Origin: Nitrospirales bacterium
GTDB taxonomy: Bacteria > Nitrospirota > Nitrospiria > Nitrospirales > UBA8639
DNA: 53,098 nt
Assembly (NCBI GenBank): GCA_021604105.1
Contig: BQIW01000024.1
Coordinates: 1 to 53,098, forward strand
Direction: 5' to 3'
The notes under the pieces: model-generated
The model's database searches: none
The model's input: the letters and a program-made list of their open reading frames with translations, nothing else
What the model was told of the DNA's origin: nothing
In this document: positions 5,128 to 29,391 of the stretch, piece by piece
Position numbering within the stretch: the first letter of the stretch is position 1
Layout: each line of letters starts with the position of its first letter
Program-made: the position numbers and the translations under genes

Positions 5128-6705
5128 TTATTTATTGGTGTAGGCCGGCAAGACCATGGGGGAGATAATGCCAGCAGACACATGGTGCCGTTTCGCTTCA
5201 GCTCGAAATCGCTTCAGATGTTCTAAGGTCAACGAGCTTTTGGGCAAAGATTTTGAACGCTCTGCTGCAAGAATACCCGTCCGCTTGCCAAACACCATTA
5301 GGTCCAACAACGAATTCCCCATGAGCCGGTTTCGCCCGTGTAATCCGCCGGAGGCCTCTCCCGCCACAAATAAATTGGCCACAGGCGTTTCTCCATTCAC
5401 ATCAATCTTGACGCCCCCATTTTGGTAATGCAGCGTAGGATAAATCAGCACCGGATCTTTCCGGATATCGACCTGGTAGCGTTCATACTGCCGAACCATC
5501 GCGGGAAAATGTTTGTCCAACGTTCCCGGCCCATGTTCCACATCTAACAGCGGCGTATCCAGCCAAACGCCCACTCTTCCTGATGGTGTTCGAACGCCCC
5601 GTCCTTCTTCACATTCCCGAATGATCGACGAGGACACGACATCACGGGTATCCAATTCATTCACAAAGCGCTCGCCCTTCCCATTCACCAAATGCCCGCC
5701 TTCAGACCGAATGCCTTCTGTCACCAGCGCACCGACTAATTGCTCAGGATACACGCCACCTGAAGGATGATATTGAAAGGTATCGATTTGAACGAGAGGC
5801 ACGCCGAGGCGATAGGCCAGGACCAGCGCATCCCCTGTCGCCCCGAAGTGATTGCTGGTTGGAAATCCCTGAATGTGTACCCGGCCAATTCCGCCTGTTG
5901 CCAGGATCACCGTTTTAGCCGCAACGACGATGAACCGATTGTTGTCTAAGTCCTTCAGTACCGCTCCCGTGCAAGCTCCATTGGCATCGCTTAATAATTC
6001 CACGGCAGCGACAAATTCCAACAAAGGAACCTTCTGGTTGAGGACTTCGTCTTTCAACACCCGCATGATTTCCAAACCAGTATAGTCGGAGCAGGTTAAC
6101 AGCCTGGCCTTTGAGCTTCCTCCCCCCTTTTTTACATGCAAATTTCCATCAGCATCCCGATCGAATAAGACACCCAATTCCAACAACCATTTCGCTATAG
6201 ACGGTCCTTCTTCCACCATGACTTTTAACAACTGGTGGTCATTTTTCATGTGCCCACCCTTTAAGGTGTCCAAGAAATGCTGAACAGGGGAATCGTCCGA
6301 ACCGACAGCAATTTGCATCCCGCCTTGGGCCATAACCGAGTTGGAATCCCCCAGGCGCAACTTTGTGGCCAGTAACACATTTGCTCCCTGGGCATGGGCA
6401 TGGAGCGCCGACGCGCACCCCGCTCCTCCTCCACCAACGACCAGGACATCTACGGAGTAATCAGGAGTAAGGTTAAGGTCGGCTGGAACCGGGCTCTCGC
6501 CTTCCAACAACGTCGCCACTTCGGCCACGGTTGATTGACCGGCATTCGGGCCAAAAACAATCGGCCGGTAGGCATGAGCCCGATGATCAGGATGGTATTT
6601 CTGGATAAGGGCATCCCGTTCGGCTGGAGAAAGCTTTGGATAACTTTTAGACCGACGGGCGTCTCGAGTTTGATGAACTACATTTCTCTGTTCGGTGAGT
6701 TCCAT
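5128..6705 (-). CDS. frdA: Fumarate reductase/succinate dehydrogenase flavoprotein subunit
   Basis: 525 residues. The FAD-binding dinucleotide fold VLVVGGGGAGCASALHA lies at about 88-104. The substrate/capping region QYHPSGGVYPEQL followed by TEGIRSEGG, and the C-terminal HGRNRLMGNSLLDLMVFGKR, are typical of FrdA/SdhA. The segment matching the covalent-flavin loop reads GDSNSVMAQGG, where E. coli FrdA has the flavin-linking histidine in RSHTVAAEGG; an Asn stands in its place, so FAD is probably bound non-covalently. It directly follows frdB (21 bases) and no membrane-anchor gene is nearby, so the enzyme may be soluble. Annotated start ATG 6705 has no obvious ribosome site. Confidence 0.88.
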   Translation of the reverse strand: MELTEQRNVVHQTRDARRSKSYPKLSPAERDALIQKYHPDHRAHAYRPIVFGPNAGQSTVAEVATLLEGESPVPADLNLTPDYSVDVLVVGGGGAGCASALHAHAQGANVLLATKLRLGDSNSVMAQGGMQIAVGSDDSPVQHFLDTLKGGHMKNDHQLLKVMVEEGPSIAKWLLELGVLFDRDADGNLHVKKGGGSSKARLLTCSDYTGLEIMRVLKDEVLNQKVPLLEFVAAVELLSDANGACTGAVLKDLDNNRFIVVAAKTVILATGGIGRVHIQGFPTSNHFGATGDALVLAYRLGVPLVQIDTFQYHPSGGVYPEQLVGALVTEGIRSEGGHLVNGKGERFVNELDTRDVVSSSIIRECEEGRGVRTPSGRVGVWLDTPLLDVEHGPGTLDKHFPAMVRQYERYQVDIRKDPVLIYPTLHYQNGGVKIDVNGETPVANLFVAGEASGGLHGRNRLMGNSLLDLMVFGKRTGILAAERSKSLPKSSLTLEHLKRFRAEAKRHHVSAGIISPMVLPAYTNK

Positions 6706-6726
6706 GGGAAAAGCGAGAAAAACAAT

Positions 6727-7443
6727 TTAGGTTGTGGCGGCGGAGGTGTTTTGTAATTCCTCATCGGACAACTTGAGGATACGATCCCATTCCTGCTGAA
6801 AACGTCCATCGGTAATCTCTTGAATACGTTTCGATAGGCCTTCCGGTTTCTCGGTAAAATGCACGCCTTGAGCCCGACTGGCATAGAGCGCGACCAGATT
6901 GGGAGCAATATCTGCGATACAGACTGGCGCGCACATTCCACACATGACACAATCCATGAACATTTCCGAGACCGCTTTAAAATCACCAAACACCGCTTTC
7001 CACACCCCTTCCCGCACATCAATATGTTGTGGGCAGGCTTCGGTACAGGCATTACAGTTCCGACATAAGGGGGCTTCAGGATAGAGCGAAAATAAATCCT
7101 GCTTGGGATCTTTGAGCTCAAGAAGGTTGTAGGTCGCTTTCCTCGCCGGAAACGCCGGCATAAAGGAAAAGGACATACCATCCTCGACTGCCATCGAACA
7201 GGCCAAACAAGTTTTAACCTTGGGATCGTCTTTCGTACGGTAATAGGTCGCACAGGCTCCACAAAATCCGCCCAAGCATCCAACCCCACGAATCACATCC
7301 TGCCCGACATACCACAAGGCCTTGATCAGGGTGATCCCGGCTGGAACCTGGAACGGTTTTCCTTCAATCTCCACTGTCACCATCTTGGGTTGGAGATTCT
7401 CTTCTCGATCAAGAGTGTTTTTTATATCCAATGTATCAGGCAT
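6727..7443 (-). CDS. frdB: Fumarate reductase iron-sulfur subunit
   Basis: 238 residues from ATG 7443. The N-terminal ferredoxin-like domain carries GCLGGFCGAC and, after an insertion, KTCLAC, ligands for a [2Fe-2S] cluster. The C-terminal domain has CRNCNACTEACP and CVMCGMCAPVC for two further Fe-S clusters. The domain order is that of FrdB/SdhB/TfrB proteins. It shuttles electrons to the FrdA flavin for fumarate reduction in the rTCA cycle. The spacing of the first cluster differs from the E. coli protein. There is no CCG-domain extension, so the electron donor (quinol, NADH or ferredoxin) cannot be read from the sequence. Confidence 0.87.
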   Translation of the reverse strand: MPDTLDIKNTLDREENLQPKMVTVEIEGKPFQVPAGITLIKALWYVGQDVIRGVGCLGGFCGACATYYRTKDDPKVKTCLACSMAVEDGMSFSFMPAFPARKATYNLLELKDPKQDLFSLYPEAPLCRNCNACTEACPQHIDVREGVWKAVFGDFKAVSEMFMDCVMCGMCAPVCIADIAPNLVALYASRAQGVHFTEKPEGLSKRIQEITDGRFQQEWDRILKLSDEELQNTSAATT

Positions 7444-11688: not shown

Positions 11689-12885
11689 TTATTTTGCGGC
11701 CATAGCCATATCGACAATGTCCGTTAACGGCGTTTTGCGGTCAAATACCTGAATATCAAAACCCTCATCCTGGAGCGCACGCATGGCCGCTAATCCCTGC
11801 AATTCGTTTGGACCACCCCGGCGCACCCAAATTTTGACACCCTCTAGCTTGCCTTCCTCTTTGGCCTTTCGAAACGCGTTGATAATGCCCCCAAAGGTCT
11901 TTTTGACATCGGTAAAATTCGCAATCGCTCCACCCACAATAATATGCTTGATACCAGGCAACGAGCAGACTTTTTCCGTCAGAACTTCCACTGCCCAGTC
12001 CGGTGGATCGCCTGAATATTCTGCATAATTTGCAAGTTTGCCACCACGGGCCACCACCGCATCTGAATAATAAACGCTAGCTCCTCCACCGGCGGGTAAC
12101 ATCGCAATATTGCCGCCGGGAATCTCAATGAGTTTAACCGAGCCTTTTACCTTGGCATCAACCGCCATGACCTCTTCTTCATTTTTGGTATAGGCACGCC
12201 CAAACTCAGCAGCAAACGGAAAGGTCCAGTCCTTATGCCGGAACTTAGCATCACCATCCAGAAGGGTCACCGCATCCAGAGCCATAAGTTCTCCCTTGAC
12301 ACTGAGCACAACCGGATTCACTTCTACGTATTGAGCATCTTCATTATCAAAACAGGCATATAATTTCTTCAAAAATTCCGCCATTTTAGCGGCCGTATCG
12401 CCGGAAAACCCGGCATCCTTTACCAGGGAGGAAAGCGCTGAATCCGACAGGGTCTCACCGGTTTCGATGGAGACATGCTTGACCTTATCCCAATTAGATT
12501 CCACTTCGATGCCACCACAGGTTGCCACCAAGAGGTCCACTCCATCGCGCGTTGATTTGGCCGCGGCATAATATTCTTCTTTGTGATCAACCGCCTCGGA
12601 AACAATCACCTGCTTAATCGTCAGGGTTTCCAGTTTTTTGCCAAGCATTTCGCGCACAGCCGCTTTTGCCGCGGCTAAATCCAATCCCACTTTGACTAAC
12701 CCCAATTTAAAACGAGAGCCAAGTGCTTCATGCGCTTTGACTACCAGTTTATTTTTTTGAAGCCAATCATTGACCTGAGATAATTGATCAAATTCCTCAC
12801 TCGAGGTCACGACAGCATAGTTGGGAGTTGAAATCCCCCATTTTCGCAATAAGCCCATTCCCGGGCCTTCAAGAACTTTTGCCAT
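11689..12885 (-). CDS. aclB: ATP-citrate lyase small subunit (AclB)
   Basis: 398 residues, the length of Chlorobium AclB. It is an ATP-grasp protein related to succinyl-CoA synthetase beta: KNKLVVKAHEALGSRFKLG near 44-62, VEVNPVVLSVKGELMALDA near 192-210 and a GGGASVYYSD turn near 269. ATG 12885 has a strong GAAGGAAGGG ribosome site. It is the first gene of the seven-gene rTCA block and carries the shared promoter described separately at 12966-12994. It forms the ATP- and citrate-binding half of the lyase with AclA. Confidence 0.96.
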   Translation of the reverse strand: MAKVLEGPGMGLLRKWGISTPNYAVVTSSEEFDQLSQVNDWLQKNKLVVKAHEALGSRFKLGLVKVGLDLAAAKAAVREMLGKKLETLTIKQVIVSEAVDHKEEYYAAAKSTRDGVDLLVATCGGIEVESNWDKVKHVSIETGETLSDSALSSLVKDAGFSGDTAAKMAEFLKKLYACFDNEDAQYVEVNPVVLSVKGELMALDAVTLLDGDAKFRHKDWTFPFAAEFGRAYTKNEEEVMAVDAKVKGSVKLIEIPGGNIAMLPAGGGASVYYSDAVVARGGKLANYAEYSGDPPDWAVEVLTEKVCSLPGIKHIIVGGAIANFTDVKKTFGGIINAFRKAKEEGKLEGVKIWVRRGGPNELQGLAAMRALQDEGFDIQVFDRKTPLTDIVDMAMAAK

Positions 12886-12965: not shown

Positions 12966-12994
12966 ATTGTACGAATGCCCTCCTCCCGCTGCAA
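12966..12994 (-). promoter_or_regulatory. Predicted sigma-70 promoter of aclB operon
   Basis: On the minus strand TTGCAG (12989-12994) and TACAAT (12966-12971) are separated by exactly 17 bases, a near-consensus sigma-70 pair. A start near 12959 would give a leader of about 75 bases to the aclB ATG. The same boxes and spacing recur upstream of the isocitrate dehydrogenase gene. Confidence 0.75.
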
Positions 12995-13033
12995 TCAATC
13001 AAAAGACCCATGAACCCCTTTCAAAAGTCCCAG
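12995..13033 (-). promoter_or_regulatory. Tandem direct-repeat operator upstream of aclB promoter
   Basis: Two minus-strand half-sites, GGGTCTTTTGA (12999-13009) and GGGACTTTTGA (13021-13031), lie 22 bases apart, the nearer one four bases upstream of the -35 box. A closely similar pair stands at the same distance from the isocitrate dehydrogenase promoter. Placement suggests a transcription activator binding site; the protein is unknown. Confidence 0.65.
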
Positions 13034-13338: not shown

Positions 13339-14013
13339 TCAGAATGCCTCCTGACTCCTGCGACTTAATTGGTAAAGAAACCCCTTCTTTTCTACTCCAG
13401 CATCTTTTCGTGGAGGCCAGTTGAGCGGGATTTCTTCTATTGCCACGATAAACTTCTCTTTGAATCCACGTTCGATGGTATCCAACCCTAGTCGATTTGG
13501 ATCACAAAAAAGGCTTTTTCCCCTTGGAGCCAGCACCTGCTCTAAAACGCGTGAAATATTCGCTAAAATCCCCTCGTCATAAAAAACCTCACTGCCCAAC
13601 ACCAAATCATAGAGTTCTTTTGGTTCTATCGTTTCCGACCAATTCAACCTGCATGTGTCAAAATTGCTGATATGATTCAAACGACAGGATTCCTTTACCG
13701 CTTCAAGGGTAATAGGCACCATATCTGAAAACATGGTGAATGCCCCGAGCCGAACAGCAACGACTCCGGCCAACCCTGTCCCACAGCCAATTTCCAGAAC
13801 CTTGACGCCTTGCAGTTTTGATGGGAAAAACCAATGAATGAGACATTCTGATATGGCCACCTCAGATGGCCAAATTCGATCCCAGTACCCCCATCCGAGG
13901 GATTCGTCATCCCCGGCATCTAATGGGGTTTCAATAGAGATGTCTCGCTTGGCCTTACAGACAATGGGAATATCTCCGATTTTTGGTAGGGTCACAACTT
14001 TCACATGACTCAC
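13339..14013 (-). CDS. Class I SAM-dependent methyltransferase, protein-lysine type
   Basis: 224 residues from GTG 14013, preceded by GGGGAAGG eight bases away. A longer reading frame to 14073 would start inside the terminator of the upstream gene, so the shorter start is preferred. The SAM-binding motif VKVLEIGCGTGLAGVVAVRLGA lies near 73-94, following WGYWDRIWPSEVAISECL. This layout resembles the Methyltransf_16 group (ETF-beta lysine methyltransferase and relatives). The substrate cannot be inferred with confidence. It lies 109 bases downstream of isocitrate dehydrogenase but is probably transcribed separately or by readthrough. Confidence 0.8.
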   Translation of the reverse strand: MSHVKVVTLPKIGDIPIVCKAKRDISIETPLDAGDDESLGWGYWDRIWPSEVAISECLIHWFFPSKLQGVKVLEIGCGTGLAGVVAVRLGAFTMFSDMVPITLEAVKESCRLNHISNFDTCRLNWSETIEPKELYDLVLGSEVFYDEGILANISRVLEQVLAPRGKSLFCDPNRLGLDTIERGFKEKFIVAIEEIPLNWPPRKDAGVEKKGFLYQLSRRSQEAF

Positions 14014-14029
14014 AGGAAATACCTTCCCC

Positions 14030-14066
14030 AAAAAAGCCGAGCCGGGCTCCGATCGGAGCCCGGCTC
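14030..14066 (-). terminator. Intrinsic terminator of isocitrate dehydrogenase gene
   Basis: A perfect 12-bp stem (14039-14050 with 14055-14066, GAGCCGGGCTCC and its complement) closes on the tetraloop GATC. On the minus strand it is followed by a short GGC and six T (14030-14035). It starts 56 bases after the stop codon of the upstream gene. Confidence 0.93.
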
Positions 14067-14122
14067 GTTGCACACATCCCCAGTATAAGAATAATACCGG
14101 AAGATCAGCCTACGTTGAGAAC

Positions 14123-16381
<2,259 letters not shown>

Positions 16382-16493: not shown

Positions 16494-16522
16494 ATTGTAA
16501 GAATGGTGTCACCCTTCTGCAA
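16494..16522 (-). promoter_or_regulatory. Predicted sigma-70 promoter of isocitrate dehydrogenase
   Basis: Minus-strand TTGCAG (16517-16522), 17-base spacer, TACAAT (16494-16499). Boxes and spacing are identical to the aclB promoter although most of the spacer differs, as expected for a functional rather than simply duplicated element. Confidence 0.75.
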
Positions 16523-16563
16523 TCAATCAAAGGACCCATGCCGCAACGAATCAAAAGTCTCAG
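16523..16563 (-). promoter_or_regulatory. Tandem direct-repeat operator upstream of icd promoter
   Basis: Half-sites GGGTCCTTTGA (16527-16537) and GAGACTTTTGA (16551-16561) on the minus strand are 24 bases apart; the nearer is four bases from the -35 box, as at aclB. The bases between the half-sites are not conserved. Confidence 0.65.
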
Positions 16564-24706: not shown

Positions 24707-26059
24707 CTAAATGCTTTTCATAAATTGAGCAACCGCTGCTGGATCCACTGTTCCCATAATATGGGATTCTGGAACTGTGTTCGACTTTTTCCCGGTTAAC
24801 CCACATTCAACTTCATCCGTTATCATTTCAACTGGCATGGACATCCCTCCGTAGACATGTGGACCGGCCACAATTTTTGCGTTGGAAAACCCATAAATTG
24901 CCGTAGCCACATCTTTGGCCAGCCATCCGACATAATTAAACTCGGGAATAACAATAAGTTTGGCTTTACCACATAACTCCCTTAGTTCGTTTGTTGGGAA
25001 AGGTCGCAAGGAACGAATTTTAATTAATCCTGCCTTAATTCCTTTTTCTTTACATTGGCGGACCGCTTCGCGGGATTGTGCCGCAGCACTCCCCGAAGCA
25101 ATAAGAAGAACATCTGCGTCCTCCACATCCTGAGCCTCTAACAATCCATCCATATATTGATTAATATATTTCCGTGAACGTTCCACCCCAGCCCATACTT
25201 CCTGCTGCCATACCGCGTGAATGTTGTAGGCCATAAAATTAGATTTTTGAACTGGAGCATCACGTGACAATCGAGCTGGTGGGTTCTCCGCATCTAAAAC
25301 CGGGACCGACCCTCTGTAAGGATCTCGAGCTGGGAGCTTGAGCCCACGATCCTGCATTGCACAATATCCTCGAGCATGAGTCACAAAAAAACCATCACAA
25401 CAGACCCCTACTGGAAGGGTCACATCATTTTTTTCGCTGATAATAAAACCCTTCATAATAAAGTCGAAAAGGTCCTGTTGATTTTCTGCATGAAAGACCA
25501 ACATTCCGCTGTTCAAAAGATAGGAAATTTCAATATTGTCAGGTTGGATAGCCAATGGAGCATTGACGACTCTGCAGGTAAACATACAAACGGCGGGAAG
25601 GCGGTGACCAGCCCACGAGACGATGGGCTCAAGGCCTCGCAATGTTCCAGGACCTGCTGTGGCCGTAAAAGCTCGAACACCTGCGCGGGAGGCGCCAGCA
25701 ATTGCTGACATGACGCCATATTCTTCCTCGCCTCGATAAAACTCCTTCACATATCCTTCCCCATATAAGACTCCGATTAATTGTAACGTTTCACTTTGTG
25801 GGGTAATGGGATAGGCCACGGACATATCTACATTTGATCGCCTCACCGCCTCTTTGGCACATTCACTCCCAGTAATGAATTCCCGCTCACGAGGAGCCTC
25901 AAAAAACATATATTCCGCGGAGACTTCCCGCTGGCGTTTGGCATCTCCATGAGGATCTTTTCTTCCCTTTGCGGTATCAACGGATGGTGCAACTGGGGCA
26001 CTGGTAATTGGATCACCTTGGGGATTTGTTTTAACTTCTGATTCAAGGGCTTCGCTCAT
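24707..26059 (-). CDS. 2-oxoacid:ferredoxin oxidoreductase alpha subunit
   Basis: 450 residues from ATG 26059. After a charged extension of about 55 residues come the pyrimidine-binding POR_N motifs: GSECAKEAVRRSNVDMSVAYPITPQSE and, later, EYGVMSAIAGASRAGVRAFTATAGPG. The C-terminal domain has VLLIASGSAAAQSREAV and IKIRSLRPFPTNEL. It forms half of the thiamine diphosphate site with the beta subunit. Last gene of a B-G-D-E-A operon. Whether pyruvate or 2-oxoglutarate is the substrate cannot be told from sequence alone; either step belongs to the reductive TCA pathway. Confidence 0.92.
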   Translation of the reverse strand: MSEALESEVKTNPQGDPITSAPVAPSVDTAKGRKDPHGDAKRQREVSAEYMFFEAPREREFITGSECAKEAVRRSNVDMSVAYPITPQSETLQLIGVLYGEGYVKEFYRGEEEYGVMSAIAGASRAGVRAFTATAGPGTLRGLEPIVSWAGHRLPAVCMFTCRVVNAPLAIQPDNIEISYLLNSGMLVFHAENQQDLFDFIMKGFIISEKNDVTLPVGVCCDGFFVTHARGYCAMQDRGLKLPARDPYRGSVPVLDAENPPARLSRDAPVQKSNFMAYNIHAVWQQEVWAGVERSRKYINQYMDGLLEAQDVEDADVLLIASGSAAAQSREAVRQCKEKGIKAGLIKIRSLRPFPTNELRELCGKAKLIVIPEFNYVGWLAKDVATAIYGFSNAKIVAGPHVYGGMSMPVEMITDEVECGLTGKKSNTVPESHIMGTVDPAAVAQFMKSI

Positions 26060-26102
26060 AGTTTTACCCCCTTATGCTTAAATAAAATATCATTCGATAC
26101 AC

Positions 26103-26864
26103 TCACGCTTCTCTTTGCATATTCTCAGCTTTATGGCCAAACTGTGCTGCATTTCCATCAACGGGGCTTTCAATACTAAAATCCAAAGGATTGGTGTGTG
26201 TTGTTCCACCATGAACTTTGGATTGCAACCCGGTAAAACGAACATTATTCCCATTTTCCGGCAATTTAATCCCCATTTCCTCTCGTACCCGCTTAAAAAC
26301 TGCTGCGACCCTTCGGATCTTTGCGGCATCAGAATCTCGTACCGTGAACATGGCATCCTCATGACCTTGTTCGGCGCAAATAGCAGAAGTCCAACAATTG
26401 GTTCCAGCTCGAATCATTTTAAGAGTCAGATTGGCATAATGACAGTGCACTCCAATAAAAATACAGGCTTCAATCTTATTTCCCCATATGGTCAGATTGG
26501 GATGATTCGGATTGATCACTTCTTCCGGTTCAACCTTAGGGTACTTTGGGCGATAGTCTGGCATGGGAATGACGAGTACATCGGGTAATTGGGCCGCTAA
26601 CTCTAAAACAGCCCTAGCCTTATCGGCCGCATGATCATTCCAATTCCACAAAACCATGGGACCAGGGAAAATTGTCGCATTCTTGCGAGTCAACATCGTT
26701 CGAGCCATGGCTTCCATAGCCAGCTCTTCCCCAACAACATGGCCAAATTTCAGACCATATCCCTTGTCAGGCGTCAGTACGCCAAGTTCTGCAGCAGATG
26801 GTGGATGAAAACCTTGTGGCCCTGGAGCCACGATTGCCTCTTCTAACTCTTTCGTTAATTCCAC
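26103..26864 (-). CDS. Fifth (epsilon-type) subunit of 2-oxoacid:ferredoxin oxidoreductase
   Basis: 253 residues from GTG 26864 with GGAG six bases upstream. It resembles the extra small subunit found in five-subunit PFOR/OGOR of Hydrogenobacter and Nitrospira, often labelled as carbon monoxide dehydrogenase beta-like. Recognisable blocks: GHVVGEELAMEAMARTML, PMVLWNWNDHAADKA and HCHYANLTLKMIRAGTNCW. No cluster-binding cysteine array is evident. Its function is not established; it may stabilise the complex. Assignment rests on operon position and remembered similarity. Confidence 0.75.
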   Translation of the reverse strand: MELTKELEEAIVAPGPQGFHPPSAAELGVLTPDKGYGLKFGHVVGEELAMEAMARTMLTRKNATIFPGPMVLWNWNDHAADKARAVLELAAQLPDVLVIPMPDYRPKYPKVEPEEVINPNHPNLTIWGNKIEACIFIGVHCHYANLTLKMIRAGTNCWTSAICAEQGHEDAMFTVRDSDAAKIRRVAAVFKRVREEMGIKLPENGNNVRFTGLQSKVHGGTTHTNPLDFSIESPVDGNAAQFGHKAENMQREA

Positions 26865-26920
26865 GTTGGACTCCGATTGATGAGTATGAAATGACTGGAG
26901 AATGAAAAGACTTTACTAGA

Positions 26921-27244
26921 TTAACCTCTCAGCGGACTAGCAAGGACCGCTTTGGTATTTTTTTCCAAGTAGGAAATATTTTCAGTGAGGGCCGCATCCC
27001 CAATTTGATCGATCATTTCCATTTTAATGGCATGGTGTTTGGCCATATTATCACACACCCATACGCATTGAGCACACCCCTTACAACGATCCACGGCGAC
27101 ATAAGCCGACCCATACTTTAAACCCCTGTCCTTTCCCGCCTCCGTATCATACTGAATCGTATTGGCTTCCGGACAATATTGAGTGCACAACTTACAGCTA
27201 GTTGCAGCACAAACATCTATATCTATATTTGCAACAAGATACAT
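26921..27244 (-). CDS. Ferredoxin-like delta subunit of 2-oxoacid:ferredoxin oxidoreductase
   Basis: 107 residues from ATG 27244 behind AAAGGGGAGAGGG. Two cysteine arrays are visible: CAATSCKLCTQYCP near 12-25 and CKGCAQCVWVC near 54-64, together able to hold two [4Fe-4S] clusters that pass electrons to or from external ferredoxin. Spacing in the first array (CxxxxCxxCxxxC) is slightly unusual. It sits between the gamma and epsilon genes. Confidence 0.88.
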   Translation of the reverse strand: MYLVANIDIDVCAATSCKLCTQYCPEANTIQYDTEAGKDRGLKYGSAYVAVDRCKGCAQCVWVCDNMAKHHAIKMEMIDQIGDAALTENISYLEKNTKAVLASPLRG

Positions 27245-27276
27245 CCCTCTCCCCTTTCAATTTCCTCTTTTATTTT

Positions 27277-28011
27277 TTAGACCGAAGCCTTTGCTGCTTT
27301 ATTTGCTGCACTAGTTGTTTGGTCGGCCATTGAGGATGCTCCCAATGTCCAACCATTATCGACGGCGTAGTCCCAGCCAGCCTTTACTACTGCTAAGTTT
27401 TTCTCAATCAATTCTGCCTTTTTCTTGAACTTTCTTTCCACCACACTATCCAATGCGGCAGTTCCGCCCGACACCACAAAACCCTTTCCGAGAAATCGAT
27501 CTTTCACAGCCTCCCCGGTGGCCTCTACAGTCGTAAGTCCCGTAATTGCGCCGATGGCTCCTACCATAGCCATATTGGTAGCCAGATCGATTCCGGCCAC
27601 ATCTAGCGACATCTGGGTGGCCGGGAGGTAATATATTTTTGCACCTATGTCTTTCAATTCTGCAGCTTGATCGGGCTCAAGATTCATAGGTGTATTGCTA
27701 TTTATGAGAACAACTCCCTCTTTTTTCAACCCATAATAAAAAGGATTGGTGTAACTTTTCCCATGAGTGATGCACTGTGGATGAAAAACCATAAGGATAT
27801 GAGGAAAGGTAATTTCCCCAATTTCGTAAATCGGTTCATTCGAGACACGCACATAACTTTCTACCGGAGCCATTCGCTTTTCAGACCCATAAAACGGAAC
27901 GATGGTGCTCTCCCCTCCGGCATTAATGACTGCCGTACTAAAAATGTGTGATGCAGTCACCACACCCTGGCCACCAACGCCTGCCATACGAATGTTATAA
28001 CGAATAGCCAT
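27277..28011 (-). CDS. 2-oxoacid:ferredoxin oxidoreductase gamma subunit
   Basis: 244 residues from ATG 28011, which has an ideal AGGAGG ribosome site six bases away; a TTG two codons earlier is less likely. N-terminal RMAGVGGQGVVTASHIFSTAV is the POR gamma CoA-binding signature, followed by GSEKRMAPVESYVRVS. The Ala/Thr/Lys-rich C-terminal 25 residues look like a flexible tail. The subunit binds CoA during reversible oxidative decarboxylation of the 2-oxoacid. Confidence 0.92.
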   Translation of the reverse strand: MAIRYNIRMAGVGGQGVVTASHIFSTAVINAGGESTIVPFYGSEKRMAPVESYVRVSNEPIYEIGEITFPHILMVFHPQCITHGKSYTNPFYYGLKKEGVVLINSNTPMNLEPDQAAELKDIGAKIYYLPATQMSLDVAGIDLATNMAMVGAIGAITGLTTVEATGEAVKDRFLGKGFVVSGGTAALDSVVERKFKKKAELIEKNLAVVKAGWDYAVDNGWTLGASSMADQTTSAANKAAKASV

Positions 28012-28076
28012 TTTCAACCTCCTCCATTTTCATAAAAGCATCCAAACCAAGCACCCACTCTGTGGGGGGGAGACCA

Positions 28077-28967
28077 CTACCCTTTTGCTACTGCAGCTGC
28101 AGGCTTCGGGAGATATTCTTTGTACCCGTACAATTCCCCTAAATACTGCTTGGCTTCGTCAGTAAGATATTCAGAAAATGCATAACGATCATTCTCAACA
28201 TCTTTGGCGTCTTCCATGACTTTATCTGTTGGAATCGCGTATTCAATATTACATGAGGTATAGGCTTGGATATACGTTGGTCCCACTTCTCGTGCAATCA
28301 AAACTGCCTTTTTAATGACACTTTCCACTCTTCTTGGATTATTGGGAACCACTGTCGCCACATACGCACACCCTGCCACCTTGGCCATTCCTAACATATC
28401 CATCTTTTCAAATTTTTTCCCCAAAGGGGCCATCTTCAAAACCTGGCCCTTATTGGTCATTCCACTTTCTTGACCACCGGTATTCCCATAGACTTCGTTA
28501 TCCAACATGATGGTCGTAAATTTTTCTTTTCGAAACCAGGAATGCAAAGTTTGAGCAAAGCCAATGTCTGCCATCCCCCCATCACCTGCCATTACTACAA
28601 CATCTTTTGGGCGATCTCCAAATCTCAACCGAAGTCCACGCGACAATCCACTGGCCACCCCATTTTGATCTCCGTAATTTCCATAGACAAAAGGAATAGC
28701 TGCCTGAGAAATGGCTAATCGCCCGCAGCCTGCCGTACCAACTGTAATCGTATCTTCAGGGTTAGGGAATGCAATAATAGCCAATCTGATAAACAACGTC
28801 ATTGCACACCCTGCACACATAGGATGTTCCTCTAGGATTTCTTTAAACGTTCCTACTTGCGAAACTGAGGTCTTTTTTCCAAATGGACCATGCTCAACCA
28901 TGTCTCTATATTCTTTTGGCATGAATTTTCCGAACCCGGGCGTGAATTTTACATAATCGAGACTCAT
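28077..28967 (-). CDS. 2-oxoacid:ferredoxin oxidoreductase beta subunit (TPP-binding)
   Basis: 296 residues from ATG 28967, with AAGGAGGAGG upstream; first gene of the operon. Cysteines in HPMCAGCAMTL and TAGCGRLA can bind a proximal [4Fe-4S] cluster. The thiamine diphosphate motif is MAGDGGMADIGFAQ... with DNEVYGNTGGQESGMT. Together with alpha, gamma, delta and the fifth subunit it makes the ferredoxin-dependent reductive carboxylase of acetyl-CoA or succinyl-CoA. Confidence 0.93.
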   Translation of the reverse strand: MSLDYVKFTPGFGKFMPKEYRDMVEHGPFGKKTSVSQVGTFKEILEEHPMCAGCAMTLFIRLAIIAFPNPEDTITVGTAGCGRLAISQAAIPFVYGNYGDQNGVASGLSRGLRLRFGDRPKDVVVMAGDGGMADIGFAQTLHSWFRKEKFTTIMLDNEVYGNTGGQESGMTNKGQVLKMAPLGKKFEKMDMLGMAKVAGCAYVATVVPNNPRRVESVIKKAVLIAREVGPTYIQAYTSCNIEYAIPTDKVMEDAKDVENDRYAFSEYLTDEAKQYLGELYGYKEYLPKPAAAVAKG

Positions 28968-29391
28968 ATCGGGCCTCCTCCTTGGTTAAAAGCAAAAATA
29001 ACCACCACCATTATTGTATTTAAAACCAAATTCTGCTAGGTAAAATCCCCCAGCGGAACAAGAAACTAACAAAGAAAATAAATTATTGTCAATTTAACCG
29101 ATAAATTTAAATTACCAATTAAATTTCCTAGGATGCACTTAGCCATTTCCTAAGTATTCACAACATAACCAAATTGCTCAATGTTTATTAAGGTTAATCT
29201 AGGCAATTGTTATAGATAATTCAACAAAAAAGAAGGCCCACCCTCTATAAAAGAAGACCCAGTCTCAAACCAAACAGCTTAGGTCTTTTGTCCCAGGTTT
29301 TTCACAGGAAGATGAAAATGGAAGTGTGGAAAGGGAATGGGACGAGCAAGCCTGGCAGATGCCTAAGGATTCTCCCAAGCTTGATGGCAGG
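28968..29391. other. Intergenic leader of the oxidoreductase operon
   Basis: 424 AT-rich bases containing the strong ribosome site of the beta-subunit gene. A minus-strand TTGACA at 29088-29093 could be a -35 box, but no good -10 follows at the usual distance. The direct repeats seen at aclB and icd are not recognisable here. A weak stem AGACC/GGTCT (29255-29259 with 29282-29286) precedes T-rich sequence on the minus strand and might terminate the M23 peptidase transcript. No gene seen. Confidence 0.5.

Follow-up and report, generated by a model that had tools for sequence, protein, structure and literature searches.

What do the closely similar sequences upstream of aclB and of icd represent, and do they mark genes that are switched together for carbon fixation? 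The question arises in a stretch of 53,098 nucleotides (the window, meaning the whole stretch analysed) from a marine nitrite-oxidising relative of Nitrospira. Bacteria of the Nitrospira type, of major importance as nitrite oxidisers and comammox organisms, use the reductive TCA cycle, which is sensitive to oxygen, for CO2 fixation. The element found before the two genes is very likely (probability of about 0.82) the promoter and operator of a dedicated carbon-fixation regulon served by one unidentified factor; a dedicated regulon is proposed because the element is kept in nearly all genomes of the order that were searched and occurs mainly before genes of the reverse Krebs cycle and genes presumed to supply its electrons. 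The binding of a protein, the activation and the signal are inferred from sequence.

The element at aclB and icd

The element itself is a direct observation, and at both genes it has the same order of parts on the minus strand: proximal half-site, 4 nt, TTGCAG, N17, and TACAAT. As for aclB (11689-12885, minus strand), it is the first gene of the unit aclB-aclA-acn-frdB-like-frdA-like-sucC-sucD, which extends on the same strand down to 2947 and was assigned by open reading frames and family matches, with the acl subunits matching succinyl-CoA ligase/citryl-CoA lyase models. Its distal half-site, TGGGACTTTTGA, is at 13021-13032 (core GGGACTTTTGA at 13031-13021), and its proximal half-site, TGGGTCTTTTGA, at 12999-13010 (core GGGTCTTTTGA at 13009-12999); the -35 box TTGCAG is at 12989-12994 and the -10 box TACAAT at 12966-12971, and the TTG of the former and the TA...T of the latter are invariant across the order. 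Regarding icd (14123-16357, minus strand), which encodes a monomeric NADP-dependent isocitrate dehydrogenase (TIGR00178, PF03971), the distal half-site TGAGACTTTTGA is at 16551-16562 (core GAGACTTTTGA at 16561-16551), the proximal half-site TGGGTCCTTTGA at 16527-16538 (core GGGTCCTTTGA at 16537-16527), the -35 box TTGCAG at 16517-16522, and the -10 box TACAAT at 16494-16499. The spacing between half-sites is 22 nt at aclB and 24 nt at icd.

The original prediction had placed TTGCAG-17-TACAAT upstream of both genes on the minus strand, with half-sites four bases upstream of the -35 box and 22 and 24 bases apart; both claims held, and the exact coordinates were confirmed. Its further claim, that the intervening bases and the spacers differ, held only in part: the final bases of the -35/-10 spacers, CATTCG and CATTCT, are common to the two promoters and conserved.

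TTGCAG-N17-TACAAT occurs twice in the window, against 0 expected from shuffles, and its only occurrences in the 4.9-Mb genome (n = 2) are the aclB and icd promoters; GGGTCTTTTGATTGATTGCAG, even allowing up to 3 mismatches, is likewise found in that genome only at these two sites. A lone half-site was rejected as evidence, having chance frequency (185 found against 182 expected, up to 3 mismatches); the pair together with the promoter is significant, unlike the single half-site.

Other features of the locus were recorded as well. The aclB leader (12965-12886, minus strand), which includes GTCCTTAACCAT and AGTCCCTGAAGGAAGGG, is 73% conserved in 12 congeners; leader-level control is one possible reason, a mere ribosome-binding region another, and some control at this level cannot be excluded given that conservation. 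The frd-like pair (5128-7443, minus strand) is nearer to the TfrA/TfrB fumarate reductase (CoM/CoB type) than to ordinary SdhA/B, with the scores for both far under the curated cut-offs. A small methyltransferase gene (13339-14073, minus strand) lies between icd and the aclB promoter, and only some relatives share it (L170, 37% identity).

Conservation in the genus, the family and the order

The conservation of the element was observed directly. In 12 congeners, mean column identity at aclB is 32% in the upstream flank, rises to about 88% in the distal half-site and falls to 42% in the linker; it is about 96% over the proximal half-site and on to the end of the -35 box, 47% for the ten bases that open the spacer, and 91% in the spacer end with the -10 box. 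Since half-sites and promoter boxes are conserved whereas flank, linker and spacer start have diverged, the aclB element is a footprint and not a recent duplication, as the original prediction had argued from the differing spacers. The form TGGGACTTT(T)G-N-ATGGGYCTTTTGATTGATTGCAG-N10-CNTTCGTACAATGC is found at aclB in nearly all congeners; as for icd, one clade has the same form as aclB, and CTGGGTCTTTTGTCTC-N-CTGGGCCTTTCGGTTGATTG is found in the other, together with a TTAAAAT -10 box. Within the genus, the aclB or icd gene was found in 20 of 21 genomes, and the composite pattern also in 20. Absence of the motif upstream of aclB and icd orthologues in close relatives had been set as the refuting test, and it was not encountered: of the congeners in which the sequence ahead of aclB or icd was seen, nearly all carry the element. 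Twenty weak matches of the first genus-wide profile search were inspected and treated as chance, because they fall mostly within coding genes (secY, a STAS-domain gene, and others).

A sequence-only profile built from 27 sites detected the element in 48 of the 49 genomes of the family, across ten genera and mostly at exactly two sites; the family of the window is suggested to be UBA8639, lineage IV of Nitrospira (PMC12342949). In Nitrospiraceae, the element has the form TAGGCCTTTTG-N-TAGTCCCTCTGG-N5-TTGAG-N-TTAGAATCC or similar. Of 72 aclB upstream regions, 71 contain the half-site pair, against 9 of 5756 background windows of 250 bp (0.16%) and 3 of 1440 shuffles (0.2%); this contrast is somewhat flattering because the degenerate consensus was composed after those sequences had been viewed. 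Across the order, a model of 41 aclB promoters gave matches in 190/197 genomes, 148/151 high-quality genomes and 34/35 genera. All these counts are confined to Nitrospirales and inflated by the relatedness of the genomes, and the E-values of the models are rough.

There are exceptions. In family f4 of the order, three of four genomes gave no match and the fourth a weak one, and the presence of aclB there was not established; in one Nitrospiraceae locus (L196), the half-site pair is gone upstream of aclB and the -10-like TTAGAATCC is retained; and the second aclB copy of genome G003 (L021) does not match the element. At two further loci (L174 and L183), the element lies about 150-180 bp farther upstream of aclB than usual, with an insertion-like segment between. 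Second monomeric icd copies in G011 (L055) and G010 (L056) are without the element, and each is preceded by a gene whose C-terminus resembles a response-regulator receiver domain.

The placement of icd varies within the order. In the Nitrospiraceae loci inspected (L191, L195 and L210), icd follows acn within the acl operon, so that a single promoter serves acl and icd; in the family of the window, icd stands apart from the acl operon, either in tandem with aclB or divergent from it, and has its own element. The element therefore follows the gene, since the detached icd has its own copy and the embedded icd shares the acl promoter. In one genus, the interval between the icd and aclB promoters encodes a two-component system along with a small protein that looks secreted (L168:2140-4779). 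This system was set aside as a candidate regulator, because it accompanies the secreted-looking protein and was not seen in the other genera inspected.

A third element and further targets

The original prediction underestimated the extent of the phenomenon: the element is larger, it spreads across the order, and the window holds a third copy that had been missed. This copy (29263-29196, minus strand) is upstream of a 2-oxoacid:ferredoxin oxidoreductase operon of five genes (24707-28967, minus strand; beta, gamma, ferredoxin-like, PF02552 protein, and alpha); its two direct half-sites, TGGGYCTTCTTTT, are spaced by 21 nt: the distal one, TGGGTCTTCTTTT, at 29249-29261 and the proximal one, TGGGCCTTCTTTT, at 29228-29240. 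The -35 box TTGAAT follows at 29219-29224, 16 nt from the start of the proximal half-site, and the -10 box TAGATT at 29196-29201. An additional, inverted half-site, TTAGGTCTTTTG on the plus strand (29279-29290), is conserved upstream of the oxidoreductase operon in congeners. Downstream of the element there is also a second, conserved promoter-like sequence (29092-29064, minus strand; consensus TTGACA-N17-TTAGTT), with the Nitrospiraceae counterpart TTGACAGTC...CTTTGCTAGGAT; tandem promoters, one activator dependent and one constitutive, are a possibility for this operon.

In genome-wide searches, the order-wide model, trained on aclB promoters of many genera and applied to 30 genomes, matched beyond aclB and icd upstream of the gene for the beta subunit of 2-oxoacid:ferredoxin oxidoreductase. 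It also matched ahead of nuoA-nuoB operons, both in Nitrospiraceae and in a single genus of the window's family. These nuo matches belong to the "2M" complex I operon, with separate NuoC and NuoD and two NuoM, a type proposed to pass electrons in reverse to ferredoxin. The same genome has another complex I operon, in which NuoC and NuoD are apparently fused (NuoCD), and this one gave no match to the element. A third model, built on 44 sites from acl, icd, oxidoreductase and nuo, and untrained on ferredoxin or on the second oxidoreductase, matched a 4Fe-4S ferredoxin gene in 9 of 15 genomes, including the source genome (G000:C83:12816-12868), and a second 2-oxoacid:ferredoxin oxidoreductase operon in several genomes (G000:C40:8289-8339). 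The sites at ferredoxin and at the second oxidoreductase are weaker, with one clear half-site and the other degenerate or apparently inverted, and E-values from 1e-4 to 0.2. The five best matches in the source genome are acl, icd, oxidoreductase 1, 2M complex I and ferredoxin. This target set is shown by the matches; additional targets may exist, because scoring was limited to the 22-150 best candidates of each genome.

Some candidates were discarded: no gene follows the recurrent matches at G000:C62 and G002:C1:3482636 on the strand concerned, and G000:C34:10096 was found via the promoter half only and is without half-sites.

As for the claim of a common regulator of reductive TCA genes, it is supported, the extra targets being CO2-fixation functions as such a regulator predicts; the activator role and the sensed signal remain inferred.

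Anatomy of the element and promoter class

The fixed register of the proximal half-site is shown by 44 of 44 promoters from four target classes, in which its start is 16 nt from the TTG of the -35 box; the patterns used for this set required a TTG within a downstream range and not at an exact distance. The distal half-site is 20-26 nt away in the same 44 promoters, and always 21 nt at the oxidoreductase. The -35/-10 spacer is 17 or 18 nt in all but one of them, and TTG and TA...T are invariant in the 41 aclB promoters and in the 44 promoters of four classes, so that the element answers to the description of a sigma-70 promoter, in which 16-18 bp lie between TTGnnn and TAnnnT; the invariant columns are these bases plus some of the half-sites. 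The distance to the start codon is about 80 nt at aclB, 140 nt at icd, and more than 200 nt at the oxidoreductase.

The sigma-54 signature GG-N10-GC (-24/-12) does not fit, as 15 nt separate GG from GC in TGGGTCTTTTGATTGATTGC, and reading of the aclB, icd and oxidoreductase elements found no CRP/FNR dyad such as TTGA-N6-TCAA; both readings were rejected for lack of fitting symmetry or spacing. The conserved positions form direct and not inverted repeats, as against the T-N11-A of LysR-type sites, for which no dedicated matrix was used. The contiguous 11-bp repeat box of PhoB/OmpR does not fit a repeat distance that varies from 20 to 26 nt.

Closest are the class II promoters of the AraC/XylS family, which the element resembles more than it does PhoB/OmpR boxes, CRP/FNR dyads or LysR sites. 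Operators of this family (araI1-araI2 of araBAD; Pm of XylS) have non-palindromic, direct half-sites about 21 bp apart, with the proximal half abutting or overlapping the -35 box and the distal half flexibly placed and occasionally inverted. The element shares these traits, satisfying both the spacing (21 nt at the oxidoreductase, 20-26 nt elsewhere) and the fixed register at the -35 box; that its architecture is AraC/XylS-like is an inference. Unlike those operators, its spacing drifts between 20 and 26 nt among orthologues and no AraC-family gene is tied to it; to our knowledge, no AraC-family site matches the half-site TRGGNCYTTTG. Neither the window nor the immediate surroundings of any site inspected yielded a recognisable regulator gene.

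Among other systems, PhoB/OmpR boxes are also direct repeats just upstream of the -35 box that activate sigma-70 promoters, but they are contiguous with a fixed 11-bp period, whereas the repeat distance of the element varies by up to 6 bp among orthologues. CRP/FNR-family sites have been predicted in the same bacteria, Nitrospira (PMC8510549); they are palindromic, in contrast to the direct repeats described here, and the text of that study does not mention ATP-citrate lyase or the rTCA cycle. CbbR and RegA/PrrA, which act on Calvin-cycle genes of Proteobacteria, are like the proposed factor in being dedicated to autotrophic CO2 fixation and in sometimes integrating redox state; they differ in the pathway, which here is the reductive TCA cycle, and in site architecture, with CbbR, of the LysR family, using T-N11-A dyads.

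Proposed mechanism

In the proposed mechanism, a putative sigma-70-type promoter, TTGnnn-N17/18-TAnnnT, would be preceded by a tandem operator, TRGGNCYTTTG-N(9-15)-TRGGNCYTTTG, with transcription inferred to start at the predicted -10 box. The T of the proximal half-site would lie at about -51, 16 nt before the -35 TTG, and with this fixed register the bound subunit could touch sigma region 4 or the alpha C-terminal domain; a second subunit, flexibly connected, would sit on the distal half-site. The factor would most likely be an activator that turns on CO2 fixation as one unit, in response to a signal inferred to be carbon, energy or redox state. What favours an activator in contact with RNA polymerase at the -35 box is that the proximal register is fixed, the distal site mobile, the half-sites non-palindromic, and the -35 boxes keep TTG only. 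The predicted regulon would comprise acl-acn-(icd)-frd-suc, icd, the 2-oxoacid:ferredoxin oxidoreductase(s), ferredoxin, and the 2M-type complex I, which is thought to reduce ferredoxin through reverse electron transport.

Alternative explanations

The alternative that survives best, although unlikely, is that the factor is a repressor or a dual regulator that shuts off CO2 fixation, for example in the presence of organic carbon. The evidence is of sequence only, some regulators repress from upstream sites by looping, and the extra inverted half-site at the oxidoreductase operon could serve such a loop. Against this, the operator overlaps neither the -10 box nor the start, the register of the proximal half-site to the -35 box is fixed, and the -35 boxes retain only the TTG of the consensus, as in activator-dependent promoters. 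A repressor at -41 to -75 is still possible and not excluded.

It is very unlikely that the element is the promoter of a specialised sigma factor, with the half-sites as extended UP-like contacts and no separate regulator. The extreme conservation from the proximal half-site through the -35 box would suit this explanation, but the -35 TTG, the -10 TAnnnT and the N17/18 spacer are ordinary sigma-70 features, and the distal half-site is sequence specific, shifts over 20-26 nt and can invert, which a sigma factor would not tolerate.

A mere leftover of duplication is also very unlikely: icd would have taken a duplicate of the acl promoter with it on leaving that operon, and the likeness of its promoter to that of aclB would no longer matter for regulation. 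Because icd is inside the acl operon in Nitrospiraceae, the icd element could plausibly have arisen from a copied promoter; however, identity has fallen to 42-47% in linkers and spacer starts but is 88-96% in the half-sites, and the same architecture is found at unrelated operons (nuo, oxidoreductase, and ferredoxin).

Finally, a leader RNA element (riboswitch or attenuator) in place of a DNA operator finds support in the conserved aclB 5' leader, but it can be all but dismissed, as no Rfam family matched at the gathering threshold in the window, the conserved block is upstream of the -35 box, and the distance to the start codon differs greatly from target to target whereas that to the -35 box is fixed.

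Significance

The preferred reading is hence an activator binding a tandem operator, and such a factor is likely a master regulator of reductive-TCA autotrophy across most of Nitrospirales, controlling the cycle and its electron supply (2M complex I and ferredoxin) as one regulon. In the literature searched, no description of an acl or rTCA regulator in Nitrospira was found, nor any described regulator with this site, in agreement with the original prediction; if the reading is correct, both the operator and the regulator of CO2 fixation by the reductive TCA cycle would be undescribed there. The element offers a defined DNA bait for the regulator together with a predicted regulon, and it is directly testable in cultured strains, since it has few copies per genome at defined operons. 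Its presence at the 2M complex I gives independent genetic support to the proposed supply of reduced ferredoxin by this complex for CO2 fixation; if the regulon is real, this complex would be linked genetically to the reduction of ferredoxin on which that fixation draws.
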